A stretch of DNA of 64,000 nucleotides from assembly GCF_000165425.1 (NCBI RefSeq), contig NW_001799619.1, positions 4,578-68,577 on the forward strand, in the 5' to 3' direction. Below the pieces are notes generated by a model. The model did not search any database. It was not told the DNA's origin and was given only the letters and a program-made list of their open reading frames with translations. The position numbers and the translations under genes were made by a program. The number at the start of each line of letters is the position of its first letter. Within the stretch, counting starts at the first letter, position 1. This stretch comes from Paramecium tetraurelia (lineage: Eukaryota; Ciliophora; Oligohymenophorea; Peniculida; Parameciidae). This document shows positions 46,704 through 50,759 of the stretch, in pieces.

Positions 46704-46921
46704 AATATATAATATCTTTTATAAAAAGGCTATGAAATTATCAATATGATGAAATATAGATTGAATTAATTGTGAATTATGTAGATAATAAAAATTTTTA
46801 TCATTATTTTTCTGTAAGTTCAATTTCACTATTCTCCTCTTTTTCAGTTGGATAACTCCTAATTTAACGAAGAATTGATTTAAATTACAAGAACTACATA
46901 TTATATTATTGTGTTACTTCG

Positions 46922-49900
46922 TCAAAAGATGAATAATGATTTCGCTAATCTTAACTTCTAAATAGTGTGATCCAATTAAAATATTTATCGTTAATGAATT
47001 TAAATAAGTATCTAAATAAGATGATTTAAATATTACGTGACAACACAACCAAAAGAGGATAACAAAAGAGACCCAAAATATTCTTTCAAAGTAAGTTTAG
47101 ATAAGTTAAAAATAAAATTACAATGTTCCCTAAATATAAAATAAATATCTTCTTACACCACAAGATATTGCATCACAAATATTAACACAAGCTAAATGAT
47201 TAACTTTGTTCTTTCTCTTTTGTTATTTGAAATGCATATATCAGTTTTGCGAATTTTATGAGAAATCAATAAATTGAAGATCTGAAGGTATACAAAAGTA
47301 TTAAATAGTAGGGTATGTGATTTCAAGTCAAAGTGATAGCAATTCAAGCCGTTTTTCATTGCAATGTACTTTTAAGTTGAGAGTTAAATCATAAACAAAA
47401 CCAGCAATTGATAGATTATTTATGAAATGATATTTCTCCACATATTGGATGTAATCAAATGGTATCTCTCGTTTTATTATCTTTCGTATAATCTTCTACT
47501 GGCTATGGAATTAAAATGTAAATTTACGTATTTCTGTGGCATACATGAAGAAAGCTGTAAAATCAACAATGAATGTGATCCATAATAATTAGGTCTAATT
47601 AAAATAGTGGAAGATGCTAAAGGTTTGTAGGATGGATAAGGATAAGAGAAGAGCTATTTTAAATTAAATGAATTTTCTAACTGCATCAAAAATGTTCCTT
47701 CCCCAATCTATTGAATAAATAACAGAAGAAAAGTTATCATCTAAAATGGAGACACTAACCATATAATTATACTGTTGAATTATTTTTGAGTTCTGACAGA
47801 AACCAACATCAGCAAGTCGATAAAATGCAGGTTCATCACTATGACTGAAGACTCCAACAACGTAATTCAATTCCTTTAATCCTTGTATGATGGCCAATTT
47901 CTCATCTAGACTTGCTCTAACTAGAACTCTCAACTCAGCAGCAACCTAAGCGAAGGCATCCATATCACCGATTTTTGGTATAATTTGACCATCTTATTTT
48001 TTGTAAGTGATTCCTTTTACTAAATCATTTAAAATCTTTCCAGTCATTACCTTCTTGGAGTCCTTCTGATGCTAATAGTTCATTGGTAATATTCCACATT
48101 TCTTACTTAAGGATATTGAACATTCTAGACTCTCATTCGTTATCATTCTCACTATAACTCCTGCTTCTTTGCATTATTAAATTGACCTTTACACTCCCTA
48201 TCTTATTTCATCCTCTAAAGCTAGTAATGCCACGAAGATCAATTGTTTCTCCATCTATTTTTCAGACAGTTACTTAGGATTTAGATTGTTCTCTATGGTT
48301 TTATAGGCTAAACACAAGGGTCTGTAACTTTCTTCACCAAATTTCTTGATTTAATTGTAGATTTACTGTCTGTATTACTCAGTTAATCTTTAAGATATGA
48401 ATTATAAAATACTTTTGAACTTCACCCTTGCAGTTTATAAAGTCTGTGCAATTTTCTAAAATAATATCTGGAGCTCCCTTAGTGTATAATATATATTTAT
48501 TTTATAATTAAATTAGCACACTCATCATTTTTCTATCAGAATTAAATTTAAAATATTATACAATTTAATTTTAATAACTTTTCCTTATAGTAGTATAATC
48601 TTATCCTAATTCATGACAATATTCAAGTAGAGCACAATCGATTTCATTTCCAAATTTTTCAAAAACAGTAATATCATTAGATCTATAGCTAATTTTTGGA
48701 TTGGCTGTTGAATTCAAACAAATATTCTCTTGGATTAATTGAATGGTTGAATATCTTAGTTTTTTAATATCGAATTTCATTAACAGTTATTCCTCAGCAA
48801 ATATCTGTACCAATCTTGTATTCCCATTAGTTAATATCTAACTTTTACTTGTGCAAATATTATTGATTCTGCCCAATATTTCACAGGAACTCGGTCTTTG
48901 AAATTTGATGCGATCTCTTTTCATTCTCTTTTAGTTATACTGAAGATAAGTGGATACAAATTTCTATAGATTGTCATTCATCACCATTAACAATAGCAAG
49001 ATGGAAATCTAACTTTACTTTATAATTGAATGAATGGAATCCACTAAATCAAAAGAGTATTCATAAATCGAAATATGATAACAATAATTAATAAATTGAA
49101 TTACCAAAGGAATGATTGCTAACACAAAGAATAGTTTAATTAATTATTATTGTAAATAATTTAATCTTTCTTAAAGAGGCGTTGTGTATTCATGTTACAA
49201 ATTCAAATCACATTTTTTCATATGATAAGTATTGACTCCCACTGCCAAAACTAATAATTATCCATTGCCTTATATGACTTTAGAACCTGAACGTACAAAT
49301 GGTAGTTTGTTAGTATTGGTATCAAAAAGCAAGGTTTAGTTCGATTAATTGGGTATAAGAATGCCATCTACTTCAATCAGCTGATCTTCTCCAAAGATGA
49401 GGATGTCTCCGACTACAATTTAGTCAGATGAAATATTAATGAGTCTATCTTTTCTCTTTAATTTAACTTTGCTGTTTTGAAATTGGCGTAAATTATTGAG
49501 CAGTTCCTGATTATCAGTTTTAAATATTCTTATTAGCAGTTGCAATAAGGAGAATACCAGAATAAATAATGATTCCATTCTTTCCTATAATATTTTGTTT
49601 AGGTACATTTTTAGAGGCAGTAAACATCATAGATAATGCTAATTTAGTTAGAGTGAGAGCAAAGAAGATTTGATGCCACTTATTCTTGATGATTTGAATG
49701 ACTAACTATTAAATTTAGACAATATTTAAACTTGATATCTAATAGTTTGTGAATCATGTATTTTATGTGTGCCAAACCTATTATAATTCAAGATCTTTAC
49801 TGCTTCTTTCGTTTGTTTAGATCGAAATGATTTGAAGAGTCGAGTCCCATCTTGAAATAAGAATAATGCATTCAATACCTGCAGATCGGTGTCCAACATT

Positions 49901-50004
49901 TTCGATAGAGAAGTTGCTGTATATGAGGTGTTTTAAGAACTTATGATTTAGAATAAATCATTAGGAGTGATTGTAAAGTTGTGTAATAATGGTTATTTGT
50001 CCAT
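46922..50004 (-). CDS. Catalytically dead PMCA-like P-type ATPase
   Basis: About 1000 residues with the complete layout of a plasma-membrane Ca2+-ATPase: N-terminus FTITPNDLFQ, actuator domain (IVVGDILIFGEDQLIEVDG, LPFVRSGSKVIQGNGQLL), P-domain, nucleotide-binding KGAPD (TKGAPDIILENC), LDDNFSSVIYSIDWGRNIFD and membrane helices through LLFNTFVYLQIFNLLI. But the actuator TGES is missing (NQSNQTLLFD), the ICSDKTGTLT phosphorylation site reads ICTSKSQILT, and the hinge GDGxNDxP reads FSHSDEPAF. With the phospho-Asp gone it cannot form the phosphoenzyme. The reading frame is otherwise kept, so it looks like a maintained pseudoenzyme. Confidence 0.85.
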
Positions 50005-50043
50005 TTATTATTATTTTTAATGTACTTTTTAATAAATTATTAA

Positions 50044-50565
50044 TCACTTCTTCTTTCTTTCGACTCCGAGTGTTTAACCTCCTCTACCAGTGGTTTTGGT
50101 GTGTTGTCCTCTGACTCTCAATCCCCAATGATGTCTCAAACCACGATTACACCTTAACTTAATTTAATTGAAATACTTGATTTTCTTCATTCTTTCTAAA
50201 TCTTCTCTTAATTTGGTTTCCAATTCGTTTGTAGTGACTTAATAATTCTTGCCATCCTTGAAATCTCTTTGTCTATTCAAAAACCATCTTGGAATGTTGT
50301 AAGCCTCTGGGGATTTGATGACTTCTGTGATTTTGTGAGCTTCATCATCAGTCAATTCACCAGCTCTCTTTGAGAGATCAAGACGGAGAACCTATAGGAT
50401 GAATAAACTCACATCAAATACCTTGCAAATTTAGATAGCAAATCTTCTGCCGATACCCTTGATACTTCTAATACCATAAGCAAGTCTTTATTTTCCATCA
50501 ACGTTTGTGTTCAATATACGAATAATGTGTCTGAATGAATCAGCCTTTTCCAACACCAAAGACAT
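50044..50565 (-). CDS. RPS18: 40S ribosomal protein S18 (uS13)
   Basis: About 163 residues starting MSLVLEKADSFRHIIRILNT, with GKQRLAYGIRSIKGIGRRFA, SPEAYNIPRWFLNRQRDFKD, LRCNRGLRHHWGLRVRGQHT and TTGRGGQTLGVERKKK at the end. A 30 nt intron (GTATTTG...CTATAG) splits CK from VLRLDLSKR. It sits on the head of the small subunit next to the P-site tRNA. The dead Ca2+-ATPase gene starts 39 bp downstream of its stop. Confidence 0.97.
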
Positions 50566-50603
50566 TTATTTGTATAAAAGATTTAATTTAATTTAAAATT
50601 TTA

Positions 50604-50759
50604 ATGGCTGCTCGATTGCATGCAAATATTGCTTCCCAGAAACTCATTCCTTTCTTCTCTTTCTCTTTTTCATAAACTAACAACATATATCAATTGATCC
50701 CATCACCCATTCTTAGTCGCCTTCATGAAACACAAAGCCTACTTATTCTACACTATTGA
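50604..50759 (+). CDS. Possible small ORF, divergent from RPS18
   Basis: A 51-codon frame starting MAARLHANIASQKLIPFF and ending LLILHY before TGA. It begins 38 bp from the RPS18 start codon on the opposite strand. No homology is recognised and it may be chance. From 50760 to 51007 nothing else is supported. Confidence 0.2.

Follow-up and report, generated by a model that had tools for sequence, protein, structure and literature searches.

Pseudoenzymes are familiar from other enzyme classes. For the P-type ATPases, we recognised no stand-alone pseudoenzyme in the literature by titles and abstract starts among the matches listed, subscription papers being mostly uncovered. The nearest precedents that we found concern two proteins. 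First, Plasmodium GCbeta, an alveolate guanylate cyclase, carries a degenerate P4-ATPase-like domain (PMC6592433). Second, pump-independent functions have been suggested for the C. elegans P-type ATPase CATP-1; however, in this protein the Asp of the DK[S/T]GT motif (D409) is present, pump activity is reported to matter as well and the evidence is genetic (PMC11631496). Here, we analysed a 64,000-nt stretch of the 69-Mb assembly of Paramecium tetraurelia (contig NW_001799619.1, our C200:4578-68577; hereafter the window), which contains an intact gene homologous to plasma-membrane Ca2+ ATPases (PMCAs). From its sequence, this gene, called pseudo-PMCA below, probably has a function other than pumping. 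Active PMCAs determine ciliary Ca2+ and the swimming behaviour of such organisms (PMC4588038). While the P4-like domain of GCbeta is fused to a cyclase, the window gene encodes a stand-alone P2B protein.

Read with the ciliate code 6, in which TAA and TAG encode Gln and TGA is the sole stop, pseudo-PMCA runs from 50004 to 46801 on the minus strand, with six exons and five introns, and specifies a protein of 1026 aa (Table 1). The exons lie in three minus-strand frames joined by introns of 22-26 nt, and the spliced model contains no internal stop and no frameshift over 3081 nt, in agreement with the initial annotation, which had described a gene unbroken by stops or shifts. That annotation had also proposed a single open frame of about 3 kb ending at 46922, and here the structure had to be revised. 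Indeed, the minus-strand open reading frames 46922-47866, 47328-48521 and 48379-49626 are each in a different frame and five short introns are required. Moreover, because intron 5 (47036-47012) shifts the frame into the C-terminal segment conserved in PMCAs, the gene ends at 46801; YLFKFINDKYFNWITLF in exon 6 can be aligned to the C-terminal part of active PMCAs and is followed by a C-terminal tail of 49 residues.

A splice-aware protein aligner joined paralogue reference positions 147-987 with three introns and zero frameshifts, introns 1 and 2, at the 5′ end, being placed by hand. The absence of a frameshift in pseudo-PMCA is no easy pass, since the same procedure had to introduce a frameshift step in eight of the 19 paralogue models, in three of them (L032-L034) at a poorly hand-built stretch of the reference. 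About 98% of P. tetraurelia introns measure 20-30 nt, with a mean of 25 (PMC5485702); the 99 introns of the 19 paralogue models have a median length of 25, five begin with GTT and 19 end with AAG. The short introns of pseudo-PMCA, its reading with code 6 and the large duplicated blocks described below fit an aurelia-type Paramecium. We also considered the window copy as a frameshifted pseudogene and rejected this reading: the changes of frame are introns, two of which lie at positions common to active paralogues.

The spliced protein carries the three catalytic replacements first reported for this locus: TGES is gone, ICSDKTGTLT has become ICTSKSQILT and GDGTNDAP has become FSHSDEP. Two further catalytic motifs are gone, PEGLP of M4 (NDNLQ) and TGDN of the P domain (TNES). 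In M6, the Asp (D790) is kept and the Asn is gone. KGAPD and LDDNF, which had been described as conserved, are both present. As a reference, we took the 198 columns that are invariant across 17 active models, that is, the 19 fetched minus L045 and L049. Pseudo-PMCA keeps 89 of these columns, L045 keeps 176 and L049 keeps 156. Within the catalytic set of 23 residues (TGE, PEGLP, DKTGT, TGDN and six hinge residues) only 4 are kept, versus 85/175 elsewhere (Fisher p = 0.006, in a comparison that was not blind as three of the five motifs had been reported lost beforehand). By region, with borders that we drew ourselves, the columns kept amount to 1/10 from the N-terminus to M2, 10/24 in the A domain, 9/27 in M3-M4, 7/16 in the phosphorylation loop, 12/18 in the N domain, 27/57 in the rest of the P domain, 15/34 in M5-M6 and 8/12 from M7 to the end.

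The N domain keeps F..RK (FNSDRKMM), KGA (TKGAPD) and R537 (the Arg of YRPLCLAY), and its nucleotide site is matched by PF13246 (2.4e-22). By the roles of the corresponding residues in SERCA, FKFNSDRKMMSV, TKGAPD and the Arg of YRPLCLAY are presumably ATP contacts. AlphaFold predictions of exon 3 alone and of exon 4 alone, run without an alignment, were uninformative, with a mean predicted local distance difference test score (pLDDT) of 39.1 and 39.1.

The full-length PMCA-type layout that had been proposed for the gene is well founded. The best curated model is the PMCA-type TIGR01517 (E 1.4e-95, 321 bits), PMCAs are the best matches of the spliced protein and the Pfam models Cation_ATPase and Cation_ATPase_C are well over cut-off; for E1-E2_ATPase, the best stretch covers model positions 3-48 of 181 only. 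Among relatives of solved structure, phmmer placed ACA8 (8qmp) first at 4.4e-77, followed by PMCA2 and PMCA1. The highest identity to the paralogues is 32% (L032, 845 columns). In position and phase, two of the five introns (2 and 3) match L032, L033 and L034 and none of the other 16 models, and the positions of introns 1, 4 and 5 are matched in 0/19. Because introns 2 and 3 match only these three loci, we read pseudo-PMCA as a likely descendant of PMCA genes, within the L032/L033/L034 clade. In the tree, this clade is also the nearest by path length, with a branch too long for firm placement. Pseudo-PMCA has in common with the clade its full-length homology, the two intron positions and phases, the ATP-site residues of the N domain, the M6 Asp, ATE(x)P, M7-M10 and the C-terminal segment, but differs from it in being without the phosphorylated Asp, TGE, TGD, GDGxNDxP and PEGLP. 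Protein and DNA searches revealed no close second copy elsewhere in the genome: the remaining protein matches are remote, with 31-36% identity for those that score best, and at the DNA level the gene has a single further match, of 128 bp at 72%, in the PMCA of contig C44.

A degraded counterpart of the gene is found in a duplicated block. The sequence around the gene has a partner on C14, 84% identical over two long pieces, and further partner blocks on C189 and C155, 76-77% identical over the longest pieces. We infer that C14 is the partner from the recent whole-genome duplication and that C189 and C155 go back to an older one; the P. aurelia duplication has been dated to tens of millions of years (PMC5485702). 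From the ribosomal protein S13/S18 gene to the next shared gene, the distance is about 0.7 kb on C14 versus 3.4 kb in the window. These 0.7 kb (L068) carry a decayed pseudo-PMCA relic (C14:54000-54830), which begins MDKQPLLPTFTIT and aligns collinearly across window 50107-49510. Past the first 88 nt, the alignment scores 58.4, versus 27.4 on average and 43.2 at most for 1000 first-order shuffles and 25.2 for the antisense. The gene part of the relic (about 500 nt) shows 14 gaps, 11 of which are not divisible by three (one of these 11 in intron 1), counts that hang on a single alignment, the two sequences being about 30% diverged. Very likely, to judge from these comparisons, pseudo-PMCA predates the C14 duplication, after which one copy would have decayed and the window copy would have stayed unbroken.

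At the older partners L069 (C189:652780-654400) and L070 (C155:74380-75980), about 1.5 kb lie beside S13/S18 with no recognisable PMCA trace. Translated searches gave no match there (E up to 1; E up to 0.5), and DNA matches past the end of the ribosomal gene are only short and scattered. Between L069 and L070, identity amounts to 87% across 657 aligned positions and to 99% across 129. Window 50005-50107, which spans the 3′ end of S13/S18 and the 39 nt that precede the pseudo-PMCA ATG, is identical to L068 at 99/99 aligned sites, two small gaps aside, and the gene beyond is about 30% diverged; gene conversion and constraint on the 3′ untranslated region are candidate readings of this identity.

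The coding frame of pseudo-PMCA contains 0 in-frame TGA; read in the two remaining sense frames, the sequence contains 28 and 42. In neutral simulations on the window coding sequence (200 runs), 7.5% of the runs were TGA-free at 0.05 substitutions per site; when the level was raised to 0.1, none of the 200 was, with a mean of 5.2 TGA. The rates of TGA and gaps lead us to estimate that a frame drifting neutrally would probably be broken once past roughly 0.01 substitutions per site. Because the window copy shows 0 TGA and 0 frameshifts when set against the decayed duplicate and the neutral simulation, selection has very likely preserved its open frame ever since the duplication from which the C14 block arose. 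The initial view of a gene that is maintained and not decaying holds for the open frame, as the duplicate decayed and the window copy is unbroken; strong constraint on the amino acids is unsupported, given the long branch, the flat composition and the lack of a third-position excess in the window-relic mismatches. Altogether, the open frame looks protected and the amino-acid sequence fast-changing, at least in the 5′ part covered by the relic.

We consider it reasonably probable that pseudo-PMCA is a maintained, fast-evolving P2B pseudo-pump that would bind ATP without hydrolysing it and act through a partner. The requirements of the P-type cycle are established biochemistry (restated in PMC10654040 and PMC7858053). 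The protein looks catalytically dead: with no acceptor Asp to phosphorylate, no TGE to dephosphorylate and no TGD or GDGxND for Mg and phosphate, the Post-Albers cycle should not run. The loss of PEGLP in M4 and of the Asn in M6 makes high-affinity Ca2+ binding unlikely, and nucleotide binding would still be possible with the N domain that is kept. The N domain may then serve as a nucleotide-dependent conformational element, an ATP-driven change of shape acting on other proteins. The most economical role suggested by these features would be that of a partner through such ATP-dependent shape changes, possibly pairing or competing with active PMCAs or with their partners. The roles first suggested for the gene, in Ca2+ sensing, inhibition of active pumps or scaffolding, are conjectural.

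Several observations weigh against a maintained pseudo-pump. The equivalog cut-off of TIGR01517 (507 bits) is not reached by pseudo-PMCA at 321 bits. Its terminal branch measures 3.33 changes per column versus a median of 0.033, and its amino-acid composition is unlike that of the alignment. G at codon positions 1/2/3 is flat (0.197/0.115/0.140), the value for position 1 in eight other PMCA coding sequences being 0.288-0.334. Within the relic-covered 50004-49510, window-relic mismatches show no third-position excess (38/121, 38/127 and 33/123 at positions 1, 2 and 3; 13/38 in introns). As mentioned above, the numbers of gaps in the relic hang on a single alignment, and the excess of retention in the N domain and from M7 to the C-terminus (p = 0.016 pooled, 0.08 for the N domain alone) concerns a grouping that was chosen after looking at the data.

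The extreme branch length, the flat codon-position composition and the lack of third-position excess, together with a duplicate that is already gone, would also fit a very recent pseudogene, which would have lost its last function lately and whose frame would be unbroken by chance. We regard this as unlikely. Indeed, the relic accumulated 14 gaps per 122 mismatches (about 0.11), 11 of the 14 not being multiples of three, and the limit of roughly 0.01 at which a drifting frame should break is a small fraction of the distance between the two copies (0.29 mismatches per site, 109/371 coding sites). A recent pseudogene also leaves five spliceable introns to explain.

The protein could be maintained for a new positive activity of its own, as a channel or as a lipid or ion carrier, and not as a regulatory partner. 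This is permitted by the long branch and the whole-length retention, and the M6 Asp is kept. However, scanning the spliced protein against Pfam and NCBIfam gave P-type ATPase models only, neither the M4 motif nor the M6 Asn is retained and there is no pointer to any specific activity, so that we find such a role improbable. Less probable still, the protein would be dispensable and the transcript or the open frame alone would be kept, for example as a spacer protecting the S13/S18 gene. Only 39 nt separate the two genes and the sites aligned upstream of the ATG are all identical to C14; however, the C14 copy of S13/S18 survives beside a relic of about 0.7 kb, which shows that the neighbour has no need for the gene. 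Finally, that the losses are artefacts of mis-splicing or assembly in an active pump is hardly credible: the AAG end of intron 3 is a less common one and intron 1 starts with GTT, but both forms occur among the paralogue introns counted above (19/99 and 5/99), and each of the five lost motifs is internal to exon 3 or exon 4 and flanked on either side by conserved sequence in the same frame, such blocks being beyond the reach of single-base errors.

Pseudo-PMCA is not the only altered pump of this genome. The phosphorylation loop was read at 24 PMCA-like loci, the window included and L059 and the C190 locus excluded. DKTGTLT is found in 22 of the 24, the exceptions being the window gene and the C197:320k locus (L015/L045). 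In L045 (C197:318100-323900), the loop reads CKTGILT, with the phosphorylated Asp replaced by Cys; M4 reads PECLP, MD of M6 has become MN and the N-domain Arg has become Ser. L045 keeps TGE, TGD and GDGTxD, and it was modelled over 1020 aa without a frameshift or stop. Because it falls in a different PMCA subclade from the window gene, the phosphorylated Asp is, by these alignments, lost at least twice, independently, in the PMCAs of this genome, and L045 is a candidate independent pseudo-pump. We can tentatively propose a repeated conversion of pumps into non-pumps, long-established for the window gene and younger for C197:320k, in which both proteins would be nucleotide-responsive regulatory partners of active plasma-membrane or ciliary Ca2+ pumps; this is a possible but doubtful extension.

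Other loci also depart from the usual form. L049 (C207:345600-351400; also L020) keeps DKTGTLT, reads PDSFP in M4 and has HGG for KGA, and is possibly altered or losing its function. The models of L037, L041 and L042 (C171, C149 and C44) contain one or two frameshift steps, and that of L042 also a stop; these steps may reflect errors in the assembly, introns that were overlooked or copies in decay. Among P4-like loci, L052, L056 and L057 were considered as motif-less and rejected, as they read FDKT[CG]T[ML]T and keep the Asp. L052 and L056 (C67 and C218) are similar to each other, with FDKTCT[ML]T, in which the Gly is replaced by Cys and the Asp is kept. The genome contains 117 PF00122 matches, and the reading of motifs covered part of the P-type superfamily.

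Table 1. Features of the pseudo-PMCA locus, in the direction of transcription (window positions).
Feature	Positions	Strand	Remarks
Ribosomal protein S13/S18 gene, neighbour and syntenic anchor	50044..50643	-	ends 39 nt upstream of the pseudo-PMCA ATG
Exon 1 (ATG at 50004)	49732..50004	-	spliced model, open under code 6
Intron 1, 26 nt, GTT..TAG, phase 0	49706..49731	-	position common to 0/19 paralogue models
Exon 2, M1 region	49607..49705	-	spliced model
Intron 2, 22 nt, GTA..TAG, phase 0	49585..49606	-	position and phase of L032/L033/L034 only
Exon 3 (M2, A domain, M3-M4, phosphorylation loop, N domain), 1172 nt	48413..49584	-	
Shortened A-domain loop NQTLLFDTNTNK; DESxxTGE[ST] in active paralogues	49306..49341	-	LFD at TGE, loop with gap
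M4 VMNDNLQK replacing A[VI]PEGLPL	48961..48984	-	
ICTSKSQILT replacing ICSDKTGTLT, phosphorylated Asp to Ser	48829..48858	-	
N-domain FKFNSDRKMMSV, kept F..(S)xRKxM nucleotide-site segment	48517..48552	-	
N-domain TKGAPD, ATP-site lysine kept	48466..48483	-	
Intron 3, 25 nt, GTA..AAG, phase 2	48388..48412	-	position and phase of L032/L033/L034 only
Exon 4 (remaining P domain, M5-M6), 860 nt	47528..48387	-	
MITNESLEC replacing M[VLI]TGDNxxTA, P-domain TGD gone	48120..48146	-	
VFSHSDEPAF replacing VTGDGTNDAPAL, hinge gone, 2-residue deletion	47823..47852	-	
Intron 4, 25 nt, GTA..TAG, phase 1	47503..47527	-	position common to 0/19 models
Exon 5, M7-M10 region	47037..47502	-	
Intron 5, 25 nt, GTA..TAG, phase 2	47012..47036	-	position common to 0/19 models; missed in the initial annotation
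Exon 6: conserved YLFKFINDKYFNWITLF, then 49-residue tail; TGA 46803-46801	46801..47011	-	

If pseudo-PMCA is expressed and conserved, it would show the pump fold naturally uncoupled from the pump cycle. As a natural loss-of-catalysis protein, it would make the pump-independent roles of P-type ATPases testable, with the decayed duplicate serving, within the same genome, as a built-in neutral control.

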